Of a stretch of 43,983 nucleotides of DNA, positions 9,351-24,277 are shown piece after piece. Made by a program: the position numbers and the translations under genes. The stretch spans positions 1-43,983 of the forward strand of contig JALZVU010000262.1 of NCBI GenBank assembly GCA_023301795.1, read 5' to 3'. How positions within the stretch are numbered: position 1 is the stretch's first letter; each line of letters starts with the position of its first letter. The DNA comes from Granulosicoccus sp. GTDB lineage: Bacteria > Pseudomonadota > Gammaproteobacteria > Granulosicoccales > Granulosicoccaceae. The notes below the pieces were generated by a model, which was not told where the DNA came from, made no database searches, and saw only the letters and a program-made list of their open reading frames with translations.

Positions 9351-9530
9351 GCGCCAAATGATGGCCGCCCATCCGCTATCGGCAGGCTTGCAGATATTGG
9401 CTTGCCTCAGAAGTATCGTGTTCTTGAACTCTGTCATTAGTTGGGCCTATACATTCAGGCCCTGATAAAAACTTGACACAGTGAGGCACAACGATTCACT
9501 ATCCACCAATGATTTGTGATCGTTAGCCAT

Positions 9531-10037
9531 ATGCCCAGATTCCTTTCGACGTTTGTGCGGGTCGTCGAGGCCATCAACTATCGCCTGGGGCGAGTTATGA
9601 TGTATTTCATCTTCGTGATGATTGGCATCCTGCTGTGGTCCTCGATATCCAAGACTTTTTTTCTACCTTCGCTGTGGACGCTGGAGCTTGCCCAGTTTTC
9701 CATGGTGGCCTACTTTCTACTGGGTGGGCCGTATGCACTACAAATGGGCGCCAATGTGCGGATGGATCTCCTGTATGGCGGATGGTCTGTCAGAAAGAAA
9801 GCCTGGGTAGACGCCTTCACTGTTTTTTTTCTGATCTTTTATCTGGGCGTGCTGCTCTACGGGGGCATCGAAAGCCTTGCCTATGCGCTGGAGTACAACG
9901 AGCGCAGTCCCACCGCATGGCGTCCATACATGTGGCCGATAAAATCGCTGATGTGTCTGGGCGTGTTTCTCATGCTGCTGCAAGCTCTGGCTGAGCTGAT
10001 CAAAGACATTGCTCGTCTTCGTAATGTGGAGCTCTGA
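9531..10037 (+). CDS. TRAP transporter small permease (DctQ family)
   Basis: Small membrane subunit of a tripartite ATP-independent periplasmic transporter, 168 residues. Four hydrophobic segments are visible. The DctQ-type stretch WTLELAQFSMVAYFLLGGPYAL and the following GANVRMDLLYG are family hallmarks. Its stop codon abuts the large permease ATG (TGA then ATG), so the two are translated together. I prefer ATG 9531; GTG 9516 would add five residues, and neither has a clear ribosome site. The substrate is not given by this subunit. Confidence 0.9.
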   Translation: MPRFLSTFVRVVEAINYRLGRVMMYFIFVMIGILLWSSISKTFFLPSLWTLELAQFSMVAYFLLGGPYALQMGANVRMDLLYGGWSVRKKAWVDAFTVFFLIFYLGVLLYGGIESLAYALEYNERSPTAWRPYMWPIKSLMCLGVFLMLLQALAELIKDIARLRNVEL

Positions 10038-11360
10038 ATGTCGTACGAGCTAATAGGCATCATGATGTTCTCATCCATGATGTTGATGATGTTGACCGGG
10101 CAGCGAGTGTTTGCTGCTATCGGCGCTGTCGGTGCCATTGCAGCAATTGCTCTATACGGTACTGGAGGGTCAGATTTCGCTTTTTCAGCAGCCATGAAAC
10201 TCATGAAGTGGTATCCGCTGCTCACGCTGCCCATGTTTATTTTTATGGGTTATGTGCTGTCGGAATCAGGTCTTGCAGATGATCTGTACAAGATGTTTCA
10301 CATCTGGATGGGTGGGCTGAATGGTGGGCTGGCCATCGGCACTATTGGTCTGATGGTCCTCGTGTCTGCCATGAATGGCTTGTCGGTTGCTGGCATGGCG
10401 ATCGGAGCCACCATTGCGCTGCCAGAACTGCTGCGCCGTGGTTACGATAAACAGATGGTGACAGGCGTGGTGCAGGCTGGGTCATCATTGGGCATTCTCG
10501 TGCCGCCCTCCGTGGTGCTTGTGTTGTACGCCATGATTGCCCGTCAGCCCGTGGGACAATTATGGCTGGCTGGCATTCTGCCCGGTTTGATGATGGCTGC
10601 CATGTTCATCATCTACATCGCAGTCAGGTGCAAGTTGCAACCGCACCTGGGGCCTGCTTTACCGGCTGAAGAGCGCCAGGTATCCAAGCGCGAGAAATAC
10701 CGATTGTTGGGTGCGGGGCTGCTGCCATTAGGTATCTTCGCTGCCATGATGATACCGTTCATTAATGGCTGGACGAGCCTTGTCGAGAGCTCGGCTGTGG
10801 GGGCACTAGCAGCATTGTTTGCAGCTATTGCCAAAGGCCGAATGAACAAGGTGGTGTTTGAAACATCGGTGCGTCAGACACTGGCAATCAGCTGCATGTT
10901 CATGTGGATTATTATGGCGGCCTTGTGTTTTGGAGCCGTGTTCGACGGACTGGGCGCTGTGCGTGCCATAGAGAATCTGTTTACCGAGCAGCTGGGCTTG
11001 AGTCCGTGGACCATTCTCATTCTCATGCAGCTGTCATTTATCCTCATGGGTACGTTTCTGGACGACACCGCCATGCTAGTTATCGTTGCACCTTTGTACG
11101 TTCCACTAGTGGGCTCACTCGGGTTTGACCTTATCTGGTACGGCGTGCTGTATACAATGACAACGCAAATTGCCTATATGACGCCGCCTTTTGGCTATAA
11201 CTTGTTTCTGATGCGAGCCATGGCCCCACCAGAAATTTCGTTAAGTGACATCTATCGATCCATCGTGCCGTTTGTCATTGTGATGCTGATAGGTCTGGCC
11301 ATTGTCATGCGATTTCCGGATATAGCGTTGTGGTTGCCCGCGCTTGTTTATGGATCGTAG
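10038..11360 (+). CDS. TRAP transporter large permease (DctM family)
   Basis: Channel-forming subunit that uses the sodium or proton gradient to bring the substrate across the inner membrane. The 440 residues and about 12 membrane segments fit the family. GVVQAGSSLGILVPPSVVLVLYA and the mirrored second-half motif FLDDTAMLVIVAPLYVPLV are diagnostic of DctM. YMTPPFGYNLFLMRA near the end is also typical. It directly follows the small permease. The binding-protein gene follows after 119 bp, giving the order Q-M-P, which differs from the P-Q-M order of classical dct operons. Confidence 0.95.
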   Translation: MSYELIGIMMFSSMMLMMLTGQRVFAAIGAVGAIAAIALYGTGGSDFAFSAAMKLMKWYPLLTLPMFIFMGYVLSESGLADDLYKMFHIWMGGLNGGLAIGTIGLMVLVSAMNGLSVAGMAIGATIALPELLRRGYDKQMVTGVVQAGSSLGILVPPSVVLVLYAMIARQPVGQLWLAGILPGLMMAAMFIIYIAVRCKLQPHLGPALPAEERQVSKREKYRLLGAGLLPLGIFAAMMIPFINGWTSLVESSAVGALAALFAAIAKGRMNKVVFETSVRQTLAISCMFMWIIMAALCFGAVFDGLGAVRAIENLFTEQLGLSPWTILILMQLSFILMGTFLDDTAMLVIVAPLYVPLVGSLGFDLIWYGVLYTMTTQIAYMTPPFGYNLFLMRAMAPPEISLSDIYRSIVPFVIVMLIGLAIVMRFPDIALWLPALVYGS

Positions 11361-11479
11361 TTGGCTTAAGCGATTGAGACAGCACACAGAATTTATTAGG
11401 TTTAATAATACACAGAGCACTAGCAGTAAAGACAGACTAGCAGCACACATCATTTCGATCACTGTAGAGGGAGAAGAGA

Positions 11480-12529
11480 ATGAGTACACGTCGCAAGTTT
11501 CTAAGTAAGGCTGCCGTTGGTACGGCCGCGGTAGGTACCGGTACAATTTTGGGCGCCCCCGCCATTCATGCGCAGTCCAAAATCAAATGGCGTATGCAAA
11601 CCTACGCTGGTCCTGCATTAGCTGAACATGTCATCAAGCCTGCTATCGATTCGTTTAATAAAATCGCTGGCGATGAGATGGAGATCGAACTATATTTCGC
11701 TGATCAGCTAGTGCCCACCGGTGAGCTGTTTCGCGCTTTGCAAAAAGGTACCATCGATGCGGTTCAATCTGATGATGACTCAATGGCATCTCCCACTGAG
11801 GTGACGGTTTTTGGTGGCTACTTTCCGTTTGCCAGTCGTTACTCGCTCGACGTTCCAGTGCTGTTCAACCAGTATGGCCTGGACAAAATCTGGTCTGAAG
11901 AATACGAAAAGGTAGGCGTAAAATGGTTGTCCGCTGGCGCATGGGATCCCTGTCATTTTGCAACCAAAGATCCTATCCGTAGTCTGGAGGATCTGAAAGG
12001 TAAGCGTGTATTTACGTTCCCGACGGCTGGTCGCTTCATGAGCCAGTTTGGCGTTGTACCTGTGAGCTTGCCGTGGGAAGACATAGAGGTGGCAGTCCAA
12101 ACCGGTGAGCTTGATGGTATCGCATGGTCTGGTATCACTGAGGATTACACCGTGGGTTGGGCTGACGTAACCAACTACTTTCTGACAAACAATATATCTG
12201 GTGCATGGGCCGGTTCGTTCTATGCGAATATGGATAAGTATCAGGAGCTTCCACCGCATTTACAGGAGCTTCTCAAGTTGACAATGGACAGCTCGCATTA
12301 CTATCGCCAGTGGTGGTACTGGGGCGGTGAAGCTGACTTGCGCGTAAACGGTCCAAAGATGGAGCTCACTACCATTCCTGACGAAGAGTGGGCCACTGTT
12401 GAATCAGCAGCATTGAAGTTCTGGGACGAAATTGCTGAGGAATCTGAAATCAAGGCCAAAGTCGTTGGCATCTTCAAGGAATACAACGCTGTTATGGAGA
12501 AGGCTGGACGGCCTTATCGATACAGTTAG
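11480..12529 (+). CDS. TRAP transporter substrate-binding protein (DctP family), Tat-exported
   Basis: Periplasmic binding protein of 349 residues. The N-terminus STRRKFLSK followed by an Ala/Gly-rich stretch and AIHAQ is a twin-arginine signal, so it is probably folded before export. LKGKRVFTFPTAGRFMSQFG carries the conserved Arg (about residue 176) that binds substrate carboxylate in this family. Next comes VAVQTGELDGIAW, the usual Q-x-G-x-x-D-G motif. It resembles the TakP/2-oxoacid type in general layout, but I cannot fix the ligand. It has a strong ribosome site (GAGGGAG) and is followed by a large hairpin. Confidence 0.92.
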   Translation: MSTRRKFLSKAAVGTAAVGTGTILGAPAIHAQSKIKWRMQTYAGPALAEHVIKPAIDSFNKIAGDEMEIELYFADQLVPTGELFRALQKGTIDAVQSDDDSMASPTEVTVFGGYFPFASRYSLDVPVLFNQYGLDKIWSEEYEKVGVKWLSAGAWDPCHFATKDPIRSLEDLKGKRVFTFPTAGRFMSQFGVVPVSLPWEDIEVAVQTGELDGIAWSGITEDYTVGWADVTNYFLTNNISGAWAGSFYANMDKYQELPPHLQELLKLTMDSSHYYRQWWYWGGEADLRVNGPKMELTTIPDEEWATVESAALKFWDEIAEESEIKAKVVGIFKEYNAVMEKAGRPYRYS

Positions 12530-12586
12530 TTCAGGATAGAACTCTTGGCGCTTTAGATTATTTAAATCGAGTGCTGTGACGCAAGA

Positions 12587-12650
12587 TGACTTCTGATGGC
12601 TTGGTTTTACTTTACATTGGCCAATGTATTGCCGTCAGAAGTCAGTTTTA
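12587..12650 (+). terminator. Nested hairpin terminator after the TRAP binding-protein gene
   Basis: Arms TGACTTCTGATGGC (12587-12600) and GCCGTCAGAAGTCA (12631-12644) pair over 14 positions with a single G-U. The right arm is followed by GTTTTAT. The 30-base loop contains a second, perfect 14-bp palindrome, ACATTGGCCAATGT (12614-12627). It is likely a terminator or partial terminator separating transport from catabolic genes. Confidence 0.65.
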
Positions 12651-12746
12651 TAGGTAAAAGTTTTATAGTTTAAAGTGCGCTTTGAAAACCTACTGGCGGC
12701 GCTTTTAACTCCTCATCAATTTAACGTCATTATCGACGGAAACATC

Positions 12747-14126
12747 ATGCCCGGTAATCTGAGTTTTGATTCTCTAAAAAATGCTGCTGCGGATGGTAGC
12801 GTTGATACGGTCGTTGCGGTCATCGTGGATATGCAGGGTCGCTTGATGGGTAAGCGGTTCCATGTTCAGCACTTTATTGAAAGCGCCGTGACAGAGACGC
12901 ATTGTTGTAACTATTTGCTAGCGACAGATCTGGAGATGGCAACTCCAGATGGGTATGCCTCTACAAGCTGGTCCAGTGGCTACGGCGATTACATCATGAA
13001 GCCTGATATGAGTACGCTAAGGCTTACGCCGTGGGCGCAGGGTGCTGCGATGGTGCTATGTGATGTCATTGATCATCACACGCTTGAGGATGTACCGCAT
13101 TCCCCACGAGCAATTTTAAAAGCACAGGTTGCACGTCTTGAGTCAATGGGCATGCAATGCATGGCCGCCACGGAGCTTGAGTTCTTTGTGTATCGTGAAA
13201 CCTTCGAACAGGCACGCGAAAAAAAGTACCAATCGCTTACGCTGTCAAGTCCTTACAACGAGGACTATCATATTTTTCAGACAGCCAAAGAAGAGGGATT
13301 TATGCGGCCTCTGCGCAATCAATTGTTTGATGCGGGCATCCCGATAGAATGCACAAAAGGTGAGGCGGAAGCCGGGCAGGCAGAGCTGAATATCCGTTAT
13401 TCGGATGCGCTTGATATGGCCGACAACCACAGCGTTGCAAAACATGCCACGAAGGAGATTGCTCTGGCGGCAAATTGCAGTGTGAGTTTTCTGGCAAAAG
13501 TGCAAGAGAATCTAACCGGATCTTCCAGTCATGTGCATCAGTCACTACGAACTCTTGATGGCAAACCTGTATTTTTTGATCCAGACGCTAAGCACGGAAT
13601 GTCTCAAACCATGAAGCACTATCTCGCTGGGCAGCTGGCCTATGCGCGCGACACCACAGTGTTTCTTGCGCCTTACATTAATTCTTACAAGCGCTTTGCG
13701 GCTGGAACGTTTGCACCAACGCATATTGTCTGGTCAATTGATAATAGGACGGCAGGTTTTCGTATTGTCGCTCCTGGTTCTTCTAACGTGCGCGTTGAGT
13801 GCCGTGTGGGTGGTTCAGATTTAAACCCGTATCTCGCTATGGCGGCTCAGATTGCTGCAGGTATTGCAGGTATTGAACAAAAGCTGGAACTGCCCGACGC
13901 CTATGACGGAGATGCCTACAGCGTTGATGAACTGGCGGTAAAGGTGGATCAGATTCCCGGTAACCTGCGCGATGCCACCCAAGCCTTACATGGCAGTACC
14001 ATGCTTCGACAAGCTATGGGTGATGAGGTGATCGATCACTACGTTCGGGCAGCCAAATGGGAGCAGGAAGAATTCGATCGCGTGGTTACCCAGTACGAAA
14101 TTAATCGAGGGTTTGAGCGCGCCTAG
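12747..14126 (+). CDS. Glutamine-synthetase-like gamma-glutamyl-amine ligase
   Basis: ATP-dependent ligase of the glutamine synthetase fold, 459 residues. The opening VDTVVAVIVDMQGRLMGKRF is typical of the PuuA/GlnT-type branch, which joins glutamate to amines other than ammonia. Metal and nucleotide motifs are present: ELEF (143-146), GEAEAGQAELN (205-215), SSSHVHQS (about 259-266), NSYKRF (312-317), and DNRTAGFR with CRVGGSDLNPYLA near the end. The adenylylation Tyr region of true GlnA is not recognisable. I start at ATG 12747; a GTG at 12675 would add 24 unlike-family residues. The exact amine is unknown. The neighbours (two dehydrogenases, TRAP) suggest it activates an imported amine for oxidation. 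Confidence 0.85.
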   Translation: MPGNLSFDSLKNAAADGSVDTVVAVIVDMQGRLMGKRFHVQHFIESAVTETHCCNYLLATDLEMATPDGYASTSWSSGYGDYIMKPDMSTLRLTPWAQGAAMVLCDVIDHHTLEDVPHSPRAILKAQVARLESMGMQCMAATELEFFVYRETFEQAREKKYQSLTLSSPYNEDYHIFQTAKEEGFMRPLRNQLFDAGIPIECTKGEAEAGQAELNIRYSDALDMADNHSVAKHATKEIALAANCSVSFLAKVQENLTGSSSHVHQSLRTLDGKPVFFDPDAKHGMSQTMKHYLAGQLAYARDTTVFLAPYINSYKRFAAGTFAPTHIVWSIDNRTAGFRIVAPGSSNVRVECRVGGSDLNPYLAMAAQIAAGIAGIEQKLELPDAYDGDAYSVDELAVKVDQIPGNLRDATQALHGSTMLRQAMGDEVIDHYVRAAKWEQEEFDRVVTQYEINRGFERA

Positions 14127-14281
14127 CGGAAGAGCCTGTCCGAGAATAATGGTCTTGTCTCGTCAGTCTGCTTTGTGACAGATGCCTGGGAGGCTCTGCT
14201 GCGTTGTAAAATGTCCTGACGCTACACACTGACAATATCAATAGCTTTTTCCATATATCAATCACCTGTAGAGATTCCAAC

Positions 14282-15667
14282 ATGACCCGCAGTACAAAGC
14301 TTGACTGTGTCTCGCCAGTTGACGGCACGGTATACGCCAGTCGCTCGGTGCTATCTGAAGAAGCGGCGCAAGCTTGCGTGAATCGAGCTCGTACCGCACA
14401 GATTGATTGGGCGGCAAAATCGCTTACCGAACGAATTACGCTGGTACAACGTGGTATCGAGATACTGGGCACACAAACAGATGCAATCGTGCCTCAGCTA
14501 GCATGGCAAATGGGTAGGCCTGTACGCTATGGTGGCGAGCATGGTGGTGTGCTTGAGCGTTCAAGCCGTATGGCGGAGCTTGCTGAGGAATCACTTGCAC
14601 CGCAGCTTATCGAATCCAGCGACGCCTTTGAAAGGCGCATAGAGCGCCAACCTCACGGAGTGGTATTAGTGGTTGCCCCTTGGAATTATCCCTATATGAC
14701 GGCGATTAACACGGTGGTGCCAGCCCTGATTGCCGGTAATTCGGTGATGCTCAAACACGCCACCCAAACGTTGTTAGTGGGCGAGCACCTGGCCAGTGCG
14801 TTTCACGAGGCAGGTGTTCCTGAAGATGTTTTCCAGAATGTCTTTCTAAGCCATGCTCTAACCAGCGAGCTGATTAGTCAGCGATCCTTTGGTTTTGTAA
14901 ATTTCACAGGTTCTGTAGCTGGTGGTCAAGCCATGGAACAGGCCGCAGCGGGTACGTTCACCCAGCTTGGTTTAGAGCTCGGTGGAAAGGATCCAGGCTA
15001 TGTCATGGAAGATGCAGATCTTGATGCCGCTGTGGACACGCTTATCGACGGTGCCATGTTTAATTCAGGCCAGTGTTGCTGCGGTATTGAACGAATTTAT
15101 GTTGTCGAATCGTTGTTTGATGCCTTTGTCAGTAAAGCTGTGGATATTGTGTCGGCCTACAAGCTGGGCAATCCCTTGAACGCTGACGTTACATTAGGGC
15201 CTATGGCACATGCGCGATTTGCAGCGCATGTTCGTGCGCAGACTCAAGCCGCCGTGGACGCGGGCGCTAAGGCACTTATTGATCCCGCGCTGTTTCCTGA
15301 AGATGATGGCGGTGCCTACCTCATGCCACAAATTCTGATAGATGTTACTCACGACATGAGTGTCATGCGTGATGAGTCGTTCGGTCCTGTGGTGGGTATC
15401 ATGAAAGTACAAGACGATACGCAAGCATTGCAACTGATGAACGATAGCCACTACGGGTTGACGGCATCATTGTGGACACAAAACACCGAGCGTGCAGCAG
15501 CGTTGGGCAGGCGTATAGAGACGGGCACTGTATTCATGAACCGCTGCGATTACCTGGACCCTTCTCTATGCTGGACAGGGTGTAAGGACACAGGCCGTGG
15601 TGCGGGATTATCAACGCTTGGTTACCATAGCGTGACACGCCCTAAATCCTTTCATTTAAAAAAATAA
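14282..15667 (+). CDS. NAD(P)-dependent aldehyde dehydrogenase
   Basis: Oxidises an aldehyde to its acid. The 461 residues fit the short class without a long N-terminal extension. APWNYPYMTAINTVVPALIAGN forms the Rossmann/cofactor entry. The general base is Glu232 in LELGGKDPG, and the nucleophile is Cys266 in NSGQCCCG, where three cysteines in a row surround the active site. DESFGPVVGI and the C-terminal GLSTLGYHSVTRPK are also family features. It starts 155 bp after the GS-like gene and 21 bp before the iron alcohol dehydrogenase. The three therefore look like one pathway in which this enzyme takes the aldehyde made by its neighbour. The substrate is not known. Confidence 0.93.
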   Translation: MTRSTKLDCVSPVDGTVYASRSVLSEEAAQACVNRARTAQIDWAAKSLTERITLVQRGIEILGTQTDAIVPQLAWQMGRPVRYGGEHGGVLERSSRMAELAEESLAPQLIESSDAFERRIERQPHGVVLVVAPWNYPYMTAINTVVPALIAGNSVMLKHATQTLLVGEHLASAFHEAGVPEDVFQNVFLSHALTSELISQRSFGFVNFTGSVAGGQAMEQAAAGTFTQLGLELGGKDPGYVMEDADLDAAVDTLIDGAMFNSGQCCCGIERIYVVESLFDAFVSKAVDIVSAYKLGNPLNADVTLGPMAHARFAAHVRAQTQAAVDAGAKALIDPALFPEDDGGAYLMPQILIDVTHDMSVMRDESFGPVVGIMKVQDDTQALQLMNDSHYGLTASLWTQNTERAAALGRRIETGTVFMNRCDYLDPSLCWTGCKDTGRGAGLSTLGYHSVTRPKSFHLKK

Positions 15668-15688
15668 ACAGCTTACGGACCATTAGCC

Positions 15689-16834
15689 ATGCAACTAACC
15701 GGTAACTGGCATTACCCCACCCCCATGCGTTTTGGTGCTGGGCGTATTGCTGAAATTGTAGATGCTTGCACAAGCGTTGGTATCGCGCGCCCGCTGTTTG
15801 TTACTGACCGCGGGCTGCGAGATTTGCCGATTACACAGGCAGCGCTGGATTTGCTTGAAGCCGGTGGTTTGGGTCGTGCCTTGTTCGCTGATGTGGATAT
15901 GAATCCGACGGGCGAAAATGTGGAAGCCGGTCTGCGCGTCTATCGCGAAGGTGGGCATGATGGTGTGGTCGCGTTTGGTGGCGGTTCGGCGCTTGATCTT
16001 GGTAAAACGCTGGCCTTCATGTCAGGTCAGACTCGCCCCGTCTGGGATTTTGAGGATGTTGATGATTGGTGGACACGCGCAGACCCTGCCGGTATCGATC
16101 CGATTGTGGCGGTACCCACCACTGCTGGTACAGGTTCTGAAGTGGGCCGAGCCAGTGTCATCACTAACAGTGATACTCACGAGAAGAAAATCATCTTCCA
16201 TCCGCGTATCTTGCCAGCTCTGGTTATTTGTGACCCTGAATTAAGTGTAGGAATGCCGGCTGTAATAACAGCAGGCACCGGTATGGATGCCTTCGCTCAC
16301 TGTCTTGAAGCATTCTGTTCACCGCATTATCATCCGATGAGTCAGGGCATTGCGCTGGAAGGCATGCGGCTGGTGAATGAATACTTGCCAGTAGCGTATG
16401 AGAACGGCACTGATATCGAAGCACGCAGTCACATGATGAGTGCGGCGGCCATGGGTGCTACTGCTTTTCAAAAAGGCTTGGGTGCCATTCACTCACTGTC
16501 TCATCCTATCGGTGCCACATTTAACACCCACCACGGCACCACCAATGCGGTCGTCATGCAGCGCGTGCTTGAGTTCAACCGCAATGCTGTGCAGCATAAG
16601 CTGGGTAGAGCGGCCGACTATCTCGGTATTCAAGGCGGGTTTGATGGATTTCATGCGCGGGTGGGAGAGTTGAATCGCTTGTTCTCGATACCCGAAAATC
16701 TGACAAAGCTGGGCGTGGTAAATCCGGATCTGGACAAGCTGAGCGCTAGTGCGCTAGCGGACCCGAGTACCGGTGGTAACCCTGTGGTCATGACGCTTGA
16801 GAACACGCGAGAACTGCTGGAAGCGTGTTTATAG
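15689..16834 (+). CDS. Iron-containing (group III) alcohol dehydrogenase
   Basis: NAD(P)-dependent interconversion of an alcohol and aldehyde, 381 residues. The cofactor motif is FGGGSALDLGK (96-106), followed by VPTTAGTGSEV. The metal ligands are all present by spacing: Asp200 and His204 in DAFAHCLEA, His268 and His282 in the HSLSHPIGATFNTHHG region. Lies 21 bp after the aldehyde dehydrogenase and is almost certainly co-transcribed. In a gamma-glutamylation pathway it would oxidise the terminal hydroxyl of a glutamylated amino alcohol. The reverse (aldehyde-reducing) role cannot be excluded. Confidence 0.93.
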   Translation: MQLTGNWHYPTPMRFGAGRIAEIVDACTSVGIARPLFVTDRGLRDLPITQAALDLLEAGGLGRALFADVDMNPTGENVEAGLRVYREGGHDGVVAFGGGSALDLGKTLAFMSGQTRPVWDFEDVDDWWTRADPAGIDPIVAVPTTAGTGSEVGRASVITNSDTHEKKIIFHPRILPALVICDPELSVGMPAVITAGTGMDAFAHCLEAFCSPHYHPMSQGIALEGMRLVNEYLPVAYENGTDIEARSHMMSAAAMGATAFQKGLGAIHSLSHPIGATFNTHHGTTNAVVMQRVLEFNRNAVQHKLGRAADYLGIQGGFDGFHARVGELNRLFSIPENLTKLGVVNPDLDKLSASALADPSTGGNPVVMTLENTRELLEACL

Positions 16835-16925: not shown

Positions 16926-17873
16926 ATGACCGACTCGCTCAGTACGCTATCCGAGCCGTTTGCCGATACGCTCGCGGCTCCTACGGTGTTGGAACTTCAG
17001 TCGCTGAAGAAAACCTATGGCTCACTACAGGTGCTCGATGGGCTGAGCATGTCCGTAAAACGCGGTGAGGTGTTCGGTTTTCTCGGGCGAAATGGTGCGG
17101 GCAAATCCACAGCTATCCGTATGGTCATGGGTATTACCCGGGCGGATGCTGGTGGCATCGAGGTATTCGGGCAACCCTTGCATACCAATCTTATTGCTAC
17201 ACGCCAGAGGATCGGCTACGTAGCGCAGGATCAGAACATGTATCCGTGGATGTCGCCTAAGGTCATATCGCGCTTTGTTCGTGGTTTCTACCCACAATGG
17301 GATGAAACTCGCTACCGGCAGCTACTTGACGATTTCAGCCTGCCTCCCAAACGACGGATTGGTACGTTTTCCGGGGGTATGAAAGCCAAGCTAGCGTTGA
17401 CGCTTGCGCTCGCAACGCGCCCTGAATTATTGATCCTGGACGAACCTACAGCCGGAATGGATCCGGTTGCACGCCGCGAGTTTCTGGATCTTGTGCGTGA
17501 GCAAACTGCTAGAGATGGGGCCACAACCTTCTTTTCTACCCATCTGATTGATGAGATAGAAGCTATCGCTGATCGCATTGGTATTGTTGAAGGCGGACGT
17601 ACGATGTACGAGGGCGAATTGGATCCACTGCGCAACAGCATAGGCACATGGTCCATCGATAGTCGCGACCATACCCCGGGCAGCATACCGGGCGAATTTG
17701 CGCGGCAAAGTATTCGCGTGCTCAGTGAGGTTGAGCGGCGAGGGCGCTGGGTCGTGACCTTGCAGTTTAAAGAGGAGACATTGGCGACGCATGAGATAGT
17801 GCTCTATCCGGGGTGGCGCCATGATGCGATGTCTCTTGAGGATGTGTTTATTGCCATTGTGTCAAACCGTTAG
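16926..17873 (+). CDS. ABC transporter ATP-binding protein of an ABC-2 type system
   Basis: ATPase subunit of 315 residues that should power the two membrane/peptidase proteins encoded next. Walker A is GRNGAGKST (54-62), the Q-loop VAQDQ is at 99-103, the signature is FSGGM (148-152), Walker B is LILDEP (about 169-174) and the switch His is His206 in FFSTHL. A C-terminal extension of about 90 residues is common in ABC-2 exporters. The next gene begins 11 bp downstream. A possible -10 (TATACT in TAATATACT, near 16890) precedes it, without a good -35. No adjacent gene indicates what is moved. Confidence 0.95.
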   Translation: MTDSLSTLSEPFADTLAAPTVLELQSLKKTYGSLQVLDGLSMSVKRGEVFGFLGRNGAGKSTAIRMVMGITRADAGGIEVFGQPLHTNLIATRQRIGYVAQDQNMYPWMSPKVISRFVRGFYPQWDETRYRQLLDDFSLPPKRRIGTFSGGMKAKLALTLALATRPELLILDEPTAGMDPVARREFLDLVREQTARDGATTFFSTHLIDEIEAIADRIGIVEGGRTMYEGELDPLRNSIGTWSIDSRDHTPGSIPGEFARQSIRVLSEVERRGRWVVTLQFKEETLATHEIVLYPGWRHDAMSLEDVFIAIVSNR

Positions 17874-17884
17874 GCGAGCACATC

Positions 17885-19804
17885 ATGGCAATTTACTCAC
17901 TGCTGGCTAAAGATTTACGTGAGCACCGAATTGCAGCATTGCTGCTGGGTGCGGGTTGTCTTGTGGTTGTTCTGTTGTTACTCGCACAAAACTCCGTGGC
18001 GGCCTACAGCATGAGCGCTTTCGAGATTGTGCGCTTCTCGCTTATCGGCTTTCTACCGTTGGTGGCGTTGATCGTTGGCAACCGCCTTGTGGTCAATGAG
18101 TACCTGAGTGGGACGCGGTTGTTTGTTGAAGCCCTACCCGTAGGTATCGTACTGCCTCTGGTGTTGAAGTATTTTTTAGGGTTTGGCTATATAGCGCTTA
18201 TTGCCACGGCCATGGTGCTGCTGGCTGGACAGCAGGCTGGCATCGCAGATGACGTAACACCCGACTATTTGCTGTTGATTCTTGCGAAAACCTGGGTGAT
18301 GGTATCGCTGTACTGGAGTCTGGTTTTCTGTTTCAGCCTGTGCGGCTATCTTCGTATTGCCTTGTATCTGATGAGTGCTGCCATCATTGGGGTGCTTGCC
18401 TACTATCCGGGGTTGGATGCTTCGGGCTTCGCACCCATGGCCTTGATGGATAGTCAGTTGTTTGTTTATGAGCGCGACATCATTCCGTGGAAGCAAATGG
18501 GAATAACGTTGCTTATTTCTCTGGCTTTTACGGTTGCAGGCTTTTTGCTCACAAGACTGGGCGAAGGTTCTGTTATCGAACGTCTGGCCAAACCTATGAC
18601 GCGTCGTGACTACGTAGCTCTTGGTGTGTTAGCAGCGTCAGGACTGGCACTGGCAGCAACACTTATAGAACGAAACCAGCGCGATCCGATTGATTTTTCA
18701 GCAAGCTCTGTTGTGCGATTAACAGACCCCGACGTCTCGGTGTTGTATCTTTCTGAGCAGTACGAAAAAACGGCCATTGAATTCGCTGAACGGGTTTCTC
18801 AATCGTTAGCCGCACTGCAGGCAACGCTTGGGTTGCCTGCACTTCCAACTGTCAGGCTGGCATTGTCTCCGAGCAGAGACAAGCATGACATCGACTACGC
18901 TACCAATGATGGCGTGTTTATCACCGCTAATTGGCTGGAGCATGACAGTTACGATAACGCTATTCTGGACTCCGTCATTTTGCATGGTGTTCTAAGCGCG
19001 CAAACCAACGGTCGTAGTGTGTTCGAACCTTACCACTGGGTACTGGACGGCTTTACGCGCTGGTGGGTAGAGCAGGGCACCACACCTTTAAATAGCGCAC
19101 ACAGCCATGAGCTTGTAGCGCGCGCCTTGCTAACACTTGAGCGCGACCCTGAAGCCATGCAGCTTATTGATCGATGGCAGTTCATCGCTGACCGCTTCTC
19201 ATATCCCAGTGCCGAGGCGCTTGCGTGGGCTGCCATGAGCTACCTTGAGCAGATCCGTGGGCGAGATGCAGTGGTATCGCTTGCTACCGAATTTCTTACC
19301 CAGCCCGTCGGCTCAACGGCATTTGCCTCGTTTAACGATAACGTGAGTACGGCAAAAGCGCGTGTGGAGACGATAACCGGTGTGCCGATGCAGGAGTTTC
19401 ATGCAGCTTGGGTGCAGTGGTTGGAGGCGCAGCGTGACGCTCCCGAGGTGCAGCGTTTTCTTGATGCGGTGCCAGCTCTCGCAGGTGATGTCTCGACAGT
19501 TATTGAAAGTAATGGAGTGAGATCATTGCAGGCCACGTATTTGGCAGCTCCACAATTTTCAGGTACTGCGGATGGATTGACTGGTCAATGCGTTATGAAG
19601 CACGACTACATTGGACCTTTCGATACTGAGTTTGATGTAACAGACGATTACGAAGATGTATCAGTCTGTCCTCAAGATGGCATTGCGCACTCGCTAGGCA
19701 GTACCTATGCGTCAGGGGATCGTGTCTTTGTCGCACTTGATCATGAAGGCGGTTTATTCCACCAGCCATTCAGATTACACGCGCAACGGTTGTACATCCC
19801 TTGA
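17885..19804 (+). CDS. ABC-2 permease fused to a degenerate gluzincin (peptidase MA-like) domain
   Basis: A 639-residue protein in two parts. Residues 1-225 form a six-segment ABC-2 permease. A seventh helix (about 244-260) leads into a periplasmic domain of about 375 residues. Aligned by eye with the next gene product, the zinc motif HExxH is replaced by SVILH (363-367): only the second His remains. The third ligand Glu is Asp388 in VLDGFTRWWVE. The surrounding helix pattern (ILDSVILHGVLSA, then HWVLDGF) is kept, so the fold is probably intact but without catalysis. It is the likely heterodimer partner of the following protein. The C-terminus has a small domain with two Cys that may form a disulfide. 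Confidence 0.75.
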   Translation: MAIYSLLAKDLREHRIAALLLGAGCLVVVLLLLAQNSVAAYSMSAFEIVRFSLIGFLPLVALIVGNRLVVNEYLSGTRLFVEALPVGIVLPLVLKYFLGFGYIALIATAMVLLAGQQAGIADDVTPDYLLLILAKTWVMVSLYWSLVFCFSLCGYLRIALYLMSAAIIGVLAYYPGLDASGFAPMALMDSQLFVYERDIIPWKQMGITLLISLAFTVAGFLLTRLGEGSVIERLAKPMTRRDYVALGVLAASGLALAATLIERNQRDPIDFSASSVVRLTDPDVSVLYLSEQYEKTAIEFAERVSQSLAALQATLGLPALPTVRLALSPSRDKHDIDYATNDGVFITANWLEHDSYDNAILDSVILHGVLSAQTNGRSVFEPYHWVLDGFTRWWVEQGTTPLNSAHSHELVARALLTLERDPEAMQLIDRWQFIADRFSYPSAEALAWAAMSYLEQIRGRDAVVSLATEFLTQPVGSTAFASFNDNVSTAKARVETITGVPMQEFHAAWVQWLEAQRDAPEVQRFLDAVPALAGDVSTVIESNGVRSLQATYLAAPQFSGTADGLTGQCVMKHDYIGPFDTEFDVTDDYEDVSVCPQDGIAHSLGSTYASGDRVFVALDHEGGLFHQPFRLHAQRLYIP

Positions 19805-19883
19805 GCGTGCACGTGATGTCAAGGCAACAGGCAAGCTTGTCAAGTGCGTGCCAATACGGCGATAACGAGGGCGTGGGTTGCAC

Positions 19884-21779
19884 ATGGTAAGGCTTATCTT
19901 TAAAGAAGCACGGCAGCTGTGGCCCATTGCTGGATTGTGGTTGGCGGTGTTGGTGCTGAACTACGCTATTCAGTTAGCCACCGAACGGTTTGATGAACAA
20001 ACGTTCACTGGCTGGTGTGAGGGATATTGCGACTACAACAGTAGCGCCACTATAATTATTTTTACTGCGTTAATTGCATTGGTAACAGCCTACAGCCTGT
20101 TCCCGCGCGAGCATGATGATGCCACCATTGATTTTCTGCGGGCATTGCCGATATCGCGTCGCTCTGTGTTCATAGCGAAAGTTTTCGCCGCATGGGGGTT
20201 GTTGTGTCTCATCAACGTTCTGAGTTACGGCCTTGATGCGTTTCTTCTAAGCACCAATCCTGAATCCATTGGCGGTCGTTTCTACCCTCAGGTTTGGACC
20301 ACTCTGCTATGGCGTGACTGTCTTGTTGCGTTCATTATTCTGTCACACGGTGTGCTGTTGTCCTGGTTCCGAACTATCGGTCTGCTTATTTACGCCATCT
20401 ATCTTCTGGCGCTGATGTGGGCAGAAAGTGCGTTGGGAACTACTGGTGTGTGGAGTATTCTTTCGCTGTTGAGTAATGAGTATGATGGCTCGACGCTTAT
20501 TGTTGACACTCGCGCATTAAGTATTCACACAGGCGTTGCCTTTCTGGCTCTGTTTATTGCCTATCACCTGTGGAGTCGTACCGATTCCAGTGTGTCCGGG
20601 GCTAAACAGGCAACCTTGGGTCTTAAGGTGTTTAAAGGCTTGCTCAGCTTTTCAGGCTTTGCAATCCTTGCGCTTGTGCTGGCGTATCAAGTGGGCGTGG
20701 GTACCGGTAGTGCTGGTACGCAGAGCCTTCGGGTGGCCACGACCGAGCACTACCGCTTCGTCTATCCTGCGGCACGCGAAGACACCATGCAGTACATACT
20801 GGAATATGCTGAATCAGACTACGCAGCATTGGGTGAGCTACTGGCGGTACCTGATCTACCCAATATCCGTGTGGACCTCTCAGCACAAAGCGAACACGCT
20901 GCGGGGCTGGCCACTTGGAAAAAAATTCAGATGGACTTGAATGCCTTTAGTGCTGATGTGTCGCAGCGACGGGTGCTTAGCCATGAGACCACCCATGTTC
21001 TGCAAGCCGTGGAATCTGATCGTGCACTGTCTCGTAACTATGGTGCTGTAAAGTTTTTCATTGAGGGTATGGCTCAGTACACCTCGTTTGAAGTGGTGCC
21101 AGAGGAAGCCAGGCGTCAGAGTAACTGGGCTTTGGCGGCTGTATCGTGGAAGCGCCAGAATATAGAATTTATTGACTTGATAGATGAGGCGGGCTTTACA
21201 GATCAGTACGATCCGGAGTTGCATTACAGTCTTGGCGACCTATGGACGCGTGCGTTTGTCAGCAGTTGTGGTCCTGAAGCTCTGGGCGACTTTCTGCGTG
21301 CTTCAGGACGAGAAGGCGCTGTGCAGAATCTGCCTCCCGCAATATTCTGGCGCGACACCACTCGGCAATTTGATTGCGATCTAGATTCTGTTAATGAACT
21401 TTGGCGATCACAAATGCAAACTCTGTATGAGTCGGTTCAACAGTCCAGATTTCCGGTTTATACCGATGTGGTTGCTAGCGTGAATGAGGCAACCGGGCAG
21501 GTTGTTATCAACGCCAAGCTGGTTGCTCACGAATCTGCTGATGCAGTTGATTTGCCTGATCGCGTTATTGTACGCATAGGGGCTTCATCAACCCGACTGG
21601 CCGCAGGCGTTGATCCGGTGTATCGCGGTCAGGTGACACAGCTTGCTGACGGGGCGAAAGTTAGTTTCACAGTTCCACGGGCAGCGATCGATGGAAACCG
21701 GTTTAGGTATCAGTTGGGCCTAACGCCCTCGGATGGCTCTCGTTATTACTATGAGTCGTGGCGGCGAGGGAGCTTATAG
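19884..21779 (+). CDS. ABC-2 permease fused to an intact gluzincin (peptidase MA-like) metalloprotease domain
   Basis: A 631-residue protein laid out like its upstream neighbour. It has about six membrane segments (15-230), a tether helix near 252-272, and then a periplasmic domain. This domain has a complete gluzincin zinc site: HETTH (367-371) and, 23 residues later, Glu394 in FFIEGMAQYTSFE. That is the pattern of Peptidase_MA-type metalloproteases. Residues from about 520 form a beta-rich C-terminal module. The start is ATG 19884; a TTG at 19878 would add two residues. Convergent with the GGDEF/EAL gene, 5 bp apart. The fusion suggests export coupled to cleavage, or a protease gated by ATP hydrolysis. 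The substrate is unknown. Confidence 0.8.
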   Translation: MVRLIFKEARQLWPIAGLWLAVLVLNYAIQLATERFDEQTFTGWCEGYCDYNSSATIIIFTALIALVTAYSLFPREHDDATIDFLRALPISRRSVFIAKVFAAWGLLCLINVLSYGLDAFLLSTNPESIGGRFYPQVWTTLLWRDCLVAFIILSHGVLLSWFRTIGLLIYAIYLLALMWAESALGTTGVWSILSLLSNEYDGSTLIVDTRALSIHTGVAFLALFIAYHLWSRTDSSVSGAKQATLGLKVFKGLLSFSGFAILALVLAYQVGVGTGSAGTQSLRVATTEHYRFVYPAAREDTMQYILEYAESDYAALGELLAVPDLPNIRVDLSAQSEHAAGLATWKKIQMDLNAFSADVSQRRVLSHETTHVLQAVESDRALSRNYGAVKFFIEGMAQYTSFEVVPEEARRQSNWALAAVSWKRQNIEFIDLIDEAGFTDQYDPELHYSLGDLWTRAFVSSCGPEALGDFLRASGREGAVQNLPPAIFWRDTTRQFDCDLDSVNELWRSQMQTLYESVQQSRFPVYTDVVASVNEATGQVVINAKLVAHESADAVDLPDRVIVRIGASSTRLAAGVDPVYRGQVTQLADGAKVSFTVPRAAIDGNRFRYQLGLTPSDGSRYYYESWRRGSL

Positions 21780-21784
21780 CGCAC

Positions 21785-24277
21785 CTATCCCGCCAGACGC
21801 ATAGTCGTTCGTGGGGCCATAGCTTTGCCCAGGCCCGTGAGTCTGGTTTGTCCCCATCGAGTGACAAAGTCAATACCGGTGACATACTGCTCAAACAGAC
21901 TACCTTGAAACTGGGTGACACCCAATGCATGAAGTTGCGATAGCTCTTCCCGGGTTGTGACGCCTCTCGCCATAACATCAACATGGAGATTTTTACAGGT
22001 GTCCATCAGATGAGGTAGAACAACGGTGTCATCAAGTACAGGTTTGCCGATAATGGCGAGTGAGGGCAGGCTGGCTGGGACATGCCGAAGCAAGTTAGGT
22101 TCGTTGGCTACACCATTGGCTACCAGCGGTACGCCTATCTCACGTAATGCAGACAATACTTCCTCGTTATAAGGGCTTGAACACGTTTTTAGTTCGATCT
22201 GTATTTGTGTTGGCAGCACCTTAAGCTCAGTCAGCTTGTTTTCAAGCAAAATGGGGAATATCGGATTGTTCAGTGTTTGTTCGGAGAGAGTCAGACAAAG
22301 CCTGAATCGATTGTCAACGATTTCAGCGTCAGACCAGCGCCGCAGAGCTCTCAGCGACAGATCGACTGTATGTTCGTCGAGCTGGTTGAGAATAGACGTG
22401 CCTTCTAGGTCGTTCATGAATTCATCTGGCATAACATAGCCACCCGCACTGGTGCGAATACGCAATTGTGTATCGGCACCAATGAGTGCGTAGTTGCCTG
22501 GCCGTTCGATGCGTACTACAGGTTCAAACCACATCTCCACGCGATTCTCTGTCAATGCCCGTTCGGTGCTACGCGTTGCCATGCCTCCTTTGCTTCGATG
22601 AGAGCTCTGGAGCTTCTTCTGTTCATACATTAGCGTGTCAGCTTCAATGAGTGCATCATCCAGAGATTTCTCTCCACTGGAGGTTGCAAGCCCAATGCTG
22701 CAACTCATGTGATGGTTGCCTTCTCCACTGTTCACGGGTTCATCGAACGCGTTGTGCAGCGCCAGAGCCAAAGTGGTTGCCTGATCTTCACTGGCTCCAG
22801 GTAGAATGACGACGAATTCGTCACCACCCCAACGAGCAAGTGTGGACCCTTGTGGGACTTGCTTGGACAGTCGTTGTGCAATACTTTTTAGTACGACATC
22901 GCCAGCAGCATGACCGTACAAGTCATTGACATCCTTGAAGCCATTCAGGTCAAGGAACATCACCGTATTTTCCTGGTTGTTGTCATCGCTCAGTTGTCGG
23001 ATAACCTTGTTCGCGTGCTTCCTGTTTAGTAGGCCTGTCAGCTCGTCATGCAATGCCTGATGGCGAAGTCGTGCTTCAACCTCGCTGCGCATTTTCTGAT
23101 CTTCTTCAAGATCCCTTGCCAGCGAATTAATGCTGGATACAAGTTCAGTTATTTCATCGGAGCTGGTGTCTACAACCCGCGCAGAGAGATTACCGTCCAT
23201 GATTTGTCGGGCGGCCATTGCGGCTCGCTTGAGTCGTCTGGCTATTGGCGCCAACAGAAAGAGGTAGAACGCTGCAACAAAGCCTATGGAGGCGATAGTA
23301 GCCCAGGTAAGCCAGCTGCGCAGCTCTATGGCAGGCGCGAAAGTTTCTGCTGAATCGATTTTCACGATCAGCCCCCAACCTGTGCTCGGGATAGTCTGAT
23401 AGGCCAGAAAAGAATCAACCCCGCGGTAGTCAAGGGCCTTCACCACTTGACTATCAGGTGAACGTAAGGCGTCGTTTACGGGCTGTTGCTTCTCTTCCGG
23501 GACAATTTTTCTGAACGCTGCCGTACGATCGAATCGTAGCGGTGTAATGAACTGAGCAGCACCCTCTGGCGTGGATTGAGCAATGTGCGCTTCAATCGAT
23601 GATCCCATGCGTTCGTGCTTGGCAATCATATTAGTGACAGGGCGTAGCCTGGATTCCATCACCAATGCACCAACGACCTCGCCGTCGAAACTGATAACCG
23701 GGGAGACGATGCCCAGTCGATGCATCTCATCCGGGTTGACGAACGCATCTCCAAAATAGGTTTTTACGGTGCGCATGGAGCGACTTACCAGCTTCTGGTC
23801 AGCAGCAACCCAGCTGAATCCCATCGTCTCGCCTAATGTGTCTCCACTTTGGTCCACCAGCCTGAGTTCAACGATTGAGGAGCCAATGATCCCGGCCTTG
23901 CGTTGCAAGGACAGCGCTAGCTGTTGCAGCGGCCAGCTTGCGTCTGGATCGATGATGGCAAACCCATCTTCCCCGCCGATGTAGTCTTGGCGCGCGTCCG
24001 AGTCTGTCGATTCTGCGTCGTGATAGGCCTGCAGTTTGGTGAAAAAATCGCGTACGTGCCCACCAGATGCCAATGTTCGGGCATGGTTGGCATAGGTATC
24101 AAGGATCTGGTTGATACGTTCCGCTTCCAGCCTTTGGGTGGTAGCGAGGGCCGCGGTGGTCCGTTCGGCCATTTGTCGGTTGAGCAGGTGGGTGGCAAAC
24201 GTTCCCACCGCCACCAGTGGAAACAACACCACGAGCAGGCAGAGTACAAGTTTGTTCCTGATTCCCATCGCATACAT
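21785..24277 (-). CDS. Sensor protein with HAMP, intact GGDEF and degenerate EAL domains
   Basis: An 830-residue inner-membrane protein. A helix at 10-27 is followed by a large periplasmic sensor (about 30-320, Cache-like by position), a second helix (322-342), a HAMP linker, and a full GGDEF domain. In the GGDEF domain, DLNGFKDVNDLYGHAAGD carries the metal residues and GGDEF is at 484-488. The EAL domain (about 578-820) has lost key residues. The EAL signature is ADT (601-603), the usual AEGVE reads ARGVT, and the LEITE-type Glu segment reads IELKTC. It should therefore make, not break, cyclic di-GMP, with the EAL part perhaps binding it. An alternative ATG lies three codons downstream. Confidence 0.9.
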   Translation of the reverse strand: MYAMGIRNKLVLCLLVVLFPLVAVGTFATHLLNRQMAERTTAALATTQRLEAERINQILDTYANHARTLASGGHVRDFFTKLQAYHDAESTDSDARQDYIGGEDGFAIIDPDASWPLQQLALSLQRKAGIIGSSIVELRLVDQSGDTLGETMGFSWVAADQKLVSRSMRTVKTYFGDAFVNPDEMHRLGIVSPVISFDGEVVGALVMESRLRPVTNMIAKHERMGSSIEAHIAQSTPEGAAQFITPLRFDRTAAFRKIVPEEKQQPVNDALRSPDSQVVKALDYRGVDSFLAYQTIPSTGWGLIVKIDSAETFAPAIELRSWLTWATIASIGFVAAFYLFLLAPIARRLKRAAMAARQIMDGNLSARVVDTSSDEITELVSSINSLARDLEEDQKMRSEVEARLRHQALHDELTGLLNRKHANKVIRQLSDDNNQENTVMFLDLNGFKDVNDLYGHAAGDVVLKSIAQRLSKQVPQGSTLARWGGDEFVVILPGASEDQATTLALALHNAFDEPVNSGEGNHHMSCSIGLATSSGEKSLDDALIEADTLMYEQKKLQSSHRSKGGMATRSTERALTENRVEMWFEPVVRIERPGNYALIGADTQLRIRTSAGGYVMPDEFMNDLEGTSILNQLDEHTVDLSLRALRRWSDAEIVDNRFRLCLTLSEQTLNNPIFPILLENKLTELKVLPTQIQIELKTCSSPYNEEVLSALREIGVPLVANGVANEPNLLRHVPASLPSLAIIGKPVLDDTVVLPHLMDTCKNLHVDVMARGVTTREELSQLHALGVTQFQGSLFEQYVTGIDFVTRWGQTRLTGLGKAMAPRTTMRLAG

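Follow-up and report, generated by a model that had tools for sequence, protein, structure and literature searches.

Proteins in which an ABC-2 permease and an M1 aminopeptidase share one chain are presumably a known kind of fusion, annotated in genomes. Two of the eight M1 loci that we fetched for comparison encode such fusions (L114:6520-11031 and L115:3250-7796, in class genomes G059 and G186), and the other six encode other M1 proteins. Each fusion lies behind an ATPase gene and forms a 1200-residue chain with an ABC-2 permease and a Peptidase_M1 domain, carrying HEAAH or HEVAH, a Glu after a spacing of x19, and Y-x-K-G. By eye, SESIGF or SEGIGF occupies the GAMEN position of M1 aminopeptidases in these chains. 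At L116:5275-8616 and L117:4218-7703, an M1-like domain (HEILH), an M28 peptidase and a PDZ domain lie in one chain. According to their abstracts, the YbbAP-TesA complex is proposed to pull out hydrophobic molecules and offer them to a hydrolase in the periplasm (PMC12646458), and PCAT is an ABC exporter with two peptidase domains (PMC6959990). The titles and opening abstract text of the open-licence papers that our searches listed hold no description of a split, paired layout or of an ABC-2/peptidase fusion, and within those sources nothing contradicts an earlier sequence-only reading, which did not recognize the pairing described below as one already described.

The window analyzed here is a 43,983-nucleotide stretch of a Granulosicoccus genome (contig JALZVU010000262.1). 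At 16926-21779 it holds three consecutive open frames on the + strand, as the sequence-only reading had reported in naming one ATPase and two long proteins of 639 and 631 residues:

16926-17873, + strand: ABC ATPase, first gene (315 aa; PF00005, E 4.1e-29)
17885-19804, + strand: permease A (639 aa; ABC-2 half with a predicted C-terminal pseudo-peptidase domain)
19884-21779, + strand: permease B (631 aa; ABC-2 half with a predicted C-terminal gluzincin-fold peptidase domain)

Structural models indicate that this trio encodes a membrane machine in which an ATP-driven transporter is joined to two outward-facing peptidase-like domains. The first gene product carries the Walker A motif, signature and H-loop of an ABC ATPase: Walker A is present in 28 of 29 relatives (the exception, L054, is truncated by a contig end), and both the SGG signature and [ST]TH occur in all 29.

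Hydropathy and AlphaFold2 models predict seven transmembrane (TM) helices in each permease, and hydropathy places both proteins N-in and C-out with positive-inside loops. Given these seven helices and the excess of Lys and Arg in the predicted inner over the outer loops of A and B, the C-terminal 358-376 residues should be extracytoplasmic. Each C-terminal domain contains an invariant Cys pair (Cys462 with Cys498 in B, Cys569 with Cys595 in A), which would suit periplasmic disulfides.

Both half-permeases are predicted to adopt the ABC-2 fold. AlphaFold2 models built on the family alignments have mean pLDDT values of 83.5 (A) and 80.0 (B), and VIA-align superposes residues 1-227 of A on NosY with Z 17.5 and rmsd 3.4 over 222 aligned residues, and B on NosY with Z 17.0 and rmsd 3.8 over 223. 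The best VIA-align fold match of A is a mycobacterial efflux pump (Z 17.9), and the ABC-2 folds that A matches also include the exporters PmtCD, KpsM, TarG and ABCG. By Pfam, B matches PF12730 (ABC2_membrane_4) with 37.9 bits, above the cut-off of 27. The window copy of A has no ABC-2 Pfam match, and PF12730 is found at E<=1 in 21 of 26 A family members.

Beyond the half-permease, B comprises the following elements:

20628-20699, + strand: TM7 tether helix of B (residues 249-272; hydropathy peak)
20721-21452, + strand: predicted gluzincin-fold catalytic domain of B (residues 280-523; VIA-align to 1sqm)
20982-20996, + strand: HETTH of B (residues 367-371; HExxH in 32/32 relatives)
21063-21065, + strand: Glu394 of B, third predicted metal ligand (HExxH-x22-EG in 32/32 relatives)
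21225-21227, + strand: Tyr448 of B, predicted transition-state Tyr (Y-x-x-G)
21456-21776, + strand: C-terminal beta domain of B (residues 525-631; strands in the model)

The tether is modeled as a helix spanning residues 245-273, with low local confidence at its end. The top Foldseek matches of B are M1 peptidases (best E 1.9e-4, probability 1.00). VIA-align fits model residues 281-524 to the LTA4 hydrolase 1sqm with Z 15.6 and rmsd 3.9 over 214 aligned residues, and gives Z 15-16 for M1 peptidases, 15.4 for the M30 lugdulysin and about 14.7 for collagenases. M30, collagenase and M61 folds are also among the B matches, and M1 is not singled out by fold; the gluzincin fold itself is firm for B in the model. 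HETTH lies within helix 358-377 and Glu394 within helix 386-404, the order expected of gluzincins, with His-Glu proximity judged from secondary structure and alignment ranges. Structure prediction agrees with the gluzincin site proposed earlier for B, setting the HETTH helix in a gluzincin fold and the Glu in the next helix, and the spacing that the same reading had noted holds throughout the family.

Conservation of the putative active site is complete. The motif Y-x-x-G-[DE] stands 50-56 residues past EG in all 32 B relatives, and for Tyr448 we take a transition-state role from the M1 pattern. H367, E368, H371, E394 and Y448 are kept in 27 of 27 aligned rows (the alignment holds 27 of 32, near relatives of kept rows and cut rows having been left out), and the catalytic set is kept in every one of the 32 relatives, down to about 31% identity. 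HExxH with a Glu in the next helix identifies B as a predicted gluzincin (clan MA), and we infer that it binds zinc and acts as a peptidase. The presumed GAMEN Glu position (residue 344, placed by spacing) is non-acidic in 27 of 27 rows, which mildly favors an endopeptidase over an aminopeptidase. The invariant residues of the B domain are spread along it, 6110 of 20000 random placements clustering as well (not significant).

Assignment to a peptidase family is less direct than assignment to a fold. The sequence-only reading had called the domain peptidase MA-like; the Pfam search with the window copy of B returns no peptidase family at its cut-off, with no Peptidase_MA_2 match listed at E<=1, and M1 accounts for most fold matches of B, alongside M30, collagenase and M61. 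PF01433 (M1) is absent from the matches of the window copy at E<=1 and from the families listed (25 of 29) for 27 B members. Family M1 has the spacing HExxH-x18-E, from which the x22 of all 32 B relatives differs. DUF6055 matches 22 of 27 B members at E<=1, the window copy falling below the cut-off. A PDB sequence search with B also matched YTH domains, nanobodies and a ribosomal protein, which were dismissed as chance (E 0.26 or worse).

The outer domain of A is a different case:

18668-19801, + strand: predicted extracytoplasmic pseudo-peptidase domain of A (residues 262-639; M1 Z about 12)
18983-19051, + strand: former active-site stretch of A (H367, R377, E381, H384, W385, D388, G389)

Foldseek matches A to LTA4 hydrolase (M1) with probability 1.00 and E 0.023, ranked after mycobacterial efflux-pump chains, and no Foldseek match of A reaches E 0.001. 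The VIA-align Z of about 12 against M1 peptidases is near the tool's range for helical arrangement alone, and we regard the gluzincin fold as probable for A. HExxH plus Glu occurs at the site in none of the 31 readable relatives (29 of the first set plus G009 and G032, read from other contigs; rows L055 and L066, which are cut by contig ends and lack the site, are excluded from motif counts). In the 26-row alignment, G, H or Q stands at position 368 and S, T, L or Q at position 371, and Asp388 occupies the expected Glu position. The layout that the sequence-only reading had drawn, an ABC-2 permease and tether helix leading to an extracytoplasmic gluzincin-fold domain, is thus borne out by the models firmly for B and probably for A. 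Its text placed the motif in B only; its title, which gave both permeases gluzincin-type domains, holds for the predicted fold of A and B and fails for the catalytic residues of A, and its notion of a protease fused to each half has to give way to a pseudo-peptidase on A. In one A relative, L060, an HEKPH lies some 85 residues beyond the site (residue 471 of that frame).

Seven of the 15 invariant residues of the A domain (H367, R377, E381, H384, W385, D388 and G389, each kept in 26 of 26 aligned rows) fall within a 23-residue window, a clustering equaled in 10 of 20000 random placements. This clustering argues that the old active site is not drifting freely and that A is a pseudo-peptidase, as judged from its alignment, with another conserved cluster in place. 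The most distant A relative, G032, has lost H367 and H384 and keeps the E, W, D and G. The alignment comprises 26 of 31 rows, near relatives of kept rows and cut rows being left out.

A and B travel together. Of 48 family genomes, 32 carry A by profile search, and these same 32 carry B: 25 of 27 within the genus, including the genome analyzed here, and 7 of the 21 others. An ATPase gene lies ahead of A in 31 of these 32 genomes, G009 and G032 among them; the contig of G041 stops within A. Every one of the 31 loci showing both genes encodes A and B as separate frames. With predicted starts, 22 of 28 loci have a 4-nt overlap between the stop of A and the start of B, which suggests coupled translation. 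The 79-nt gap in the window is the widest of the six spacings of the non-overlap type. Flanking genes differ between trio loci, which marks the trio as the unit. Profile comparison shows A and B to be homologs along their length (hhalign 97.7%, E 2e-12, 593 columns), and the B sequence weakly finds the A of G032 directly (14.3 bits, E 2.8e-5, few frames searched). The outer domains alone give a weak profile match (prob 3.7%, E 0.012); since this is unconvincing, the relation between the two domains rests on fold and order. One active-looking and one catalytically lost domain, together with co-occurrence, gene order and the 4-nt overlap, indicate that the trio probably works as a heterodimer of one active and one repurposed dead domain.

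Among the candidates scored, the B outer-domain profile matches three class genomes out of 369, each a member of this genus, and one phylum genome out of 299, the genome analyzed here; the profile searches span one phylum and scored part of the candidates in each genome (in the analyzed genome, for instance, 3-6 of up to 17). A species-wide scan with single-sequence patterns returned six B loci, all in Granulosicoccus MAGs, and 72,556 plasmid records contain no plasmid-borne copy of B. Full-length B profile matches in 20 other phylum genomes (of 398) were rejected as generic ABC-2 hits, all lying within permease positions 53-160, as was a likewise generic match in G311 of the class sample. An anti-phage role was also set aside: the permeases have no PADLOC match, and those of the ATPase look generic.

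Immediately ahead of the trio and on its strand, window positions 9516-16834 hold a run of TRAP transporter genes for DctQ, DctM and DctP, a glutamine-synthetase-type gene, an aldehyde dehydrogenase and an iron alcohol dehydrogenase, which looks like a cluster for amine or alcohol uptake and oxidation. A convergent HAMP-GGDEF-EAL gene (21785-24277, - strand) ends 5 nt from the trio; its GGDEF motif looks intact, and by eye the EAL motif seems absent, with ALIGAD instead. The commonest trio neighbors are a downstream GGDEF/EAL gene, at 12 loci including the window, and a gene judged by eye to be MetH-like, at 9 loci. Neither accompanies the trio at every locus, and both were rejected as members of it.

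What might such a machine do? The complex would combine two ATPases with the unlike half-permeases A and B, and the seventh TM helix of each permease would hold an M1-like domain in the periplasm. Domain B would be a zinc peptidase, and domain A a pseudo-peptidase retained either for binding or as a partner of B. Driven by ATP, movement of the permeases could lift a peptide-like substrate, membrane-embedded or newly exported, to the periplasmic face, where the pair of domains would receive it and B would cut it: an extract-or-export-and-cleave device. We favor ATP-driven delivery of such a substrate to the A/B pair tentatively, at somewhat short of an even chance; it draws on the co-occurrence of A and B with the ATPase, the 4-nt overlap, the B motifs, the A cluster, the ABC-2 and M1 folds, and the YbbAP-TesA precedent. 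Counting against it are the lack of a cargo gene among the ORF clusters described below, the non-acidic residues at the presumed GAMEN position, which bear on peptidase specificity, the weak profile match between the outer domains together with the modest M1 score of A, and the fact that the NosY complex is not known as a plain exporter, so that transport would have to be assumed. More specifically, the conserved H, R, E, H, W and D cluster in the old active site of A could mean that the A half has been rebuilt as a substrate receiver that passes the ATP-lifted peptide to the active B half, an asymmetric arrangement that we consider unlikely in this exact form. In mitochondrial processing peptidase, two subunits divide the labor; the receiver proposed here would be comparable, but built into a transporter.

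Next to delivery and cutting we rank a gated protease without transport, in which ATP binding in the cytoplasm would shift the permeases and thereby turn peptidase activity in the periplasm on or off by mechanotransmission. This is distinctly less probable. NosDFY is a precedent for mechanotransmission, and NosY is among the permease matches. A cargo gene is missing from the 12 largest clusters of ORFs near the trio at 28 loci (25-110 aa, from 1500 bases before the trio to 1000 after it), which by eye look like shadow ORFs of flanking genes. FtsEX systems, however, are type VII, with a permease fold different from ABC-2, and the ABC-2 folds matched here also include exporters, both of which count against gating. 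Control of periplasmic hydrolases by FtsEX mechanotransmission is described in the literature, in the titles and abstract openings searched, and favors it.

A further possibility, overlapping the other readings, concerns origin: the trio could have arisen from the one-chain ABC-2/M1 fusion by fission and duplication and still do the same job. The L114 and L115 fusions likewise follow an ATPase gene and end in permease, TM helix and M1 domain, and residues 51-306 of B align with the second half-permease and tether of a fusion (hhalign 90.5%, E 1.3e-6). This alignment nevertheless ends before the peptidase, and A aligns weakly with the fusion permease (prob 4.1%). The fusions also differ in having, by eye, roughly 250 more residues from tether to catalytic domain, a spacing of x19 where B has x22, a Pfam M1 match that B lacks, and one peptidase domain instead of two, all of which makes this origin doubtful. 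Least likely is an ordinary ABC-2 exporter of a drug, lipid or peptide whose outer domains are scaffolds or docking sites and whose HExxH is a relic or binds a structural metal: the loss of catalytic residues from A in 31 of 31 readable relatives and its efflux-pump fold match fit this improbable reading, but the full catalytic set of B, retained across such divergence, is unlike a relic.

One active-looking and one catalytically lost domain on an ABC transporter suggest, then, an ATP-powered "deliver and cut" device. With A and B as separate genes, one bearing an active and the other a dead domain, either half can be deleted or mutated on its own. The split lineage thus offers a clean genetic handle by which the coupling of ATP hydrolysis, delivery and cutting becomes testable.

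Among the closest known systems are the ABC-2/M1 fusions, with which the trio shares an upstream ATPase gene, an ABC-2 permease, a tether helix and then an M1-fold metallopeptidase. Each fusion, however, is a single chain of 1200 aa whose one peptidase domain matches Pfam Peptidase_M1, whereas the trio has two chains and two domains, one of them dead, and its window copy lacks the M1 match; no trio protein combines both half-permeases and one M1 domain. NosY of NosDFY is among the nearest solved permease folds to A and B (Z about 17), but it has no peptidase domain and its partner NosD is separate. B shares its catalytic fold and its HExxH, Glu and Tyr-x-x-G with M1 peptidases such as LTA4 hydrolase, ERAP and aminopeptidase N, and differs from them in its x22 spacing, the lack of an acidic residue at the presumed GAMEN position and the little space between tether and catalytic domain for the M1 N-terminal domain. 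The peptidase of PCAT is of the cysteine type, lies on the cytoplasmic side and cuts before export, unlike that of the trio. The likeness to PCAT lies in two peptidase domains on an ABC transporter (PMC6959990), and that to YbbAP-TesA in an ABC complex handing molecules to a periplasmic hydrolase, as proposed for the trio; YbbAP-TesA, by contrast, has a type VII permease and a separate esterase, and its abstract names no fused peptidase (PMC12646458). The ABC-2/M1 fusion is a known kind of protein; the split, paired layout of one active-looking and one inactive domain appears to be a new form of it.
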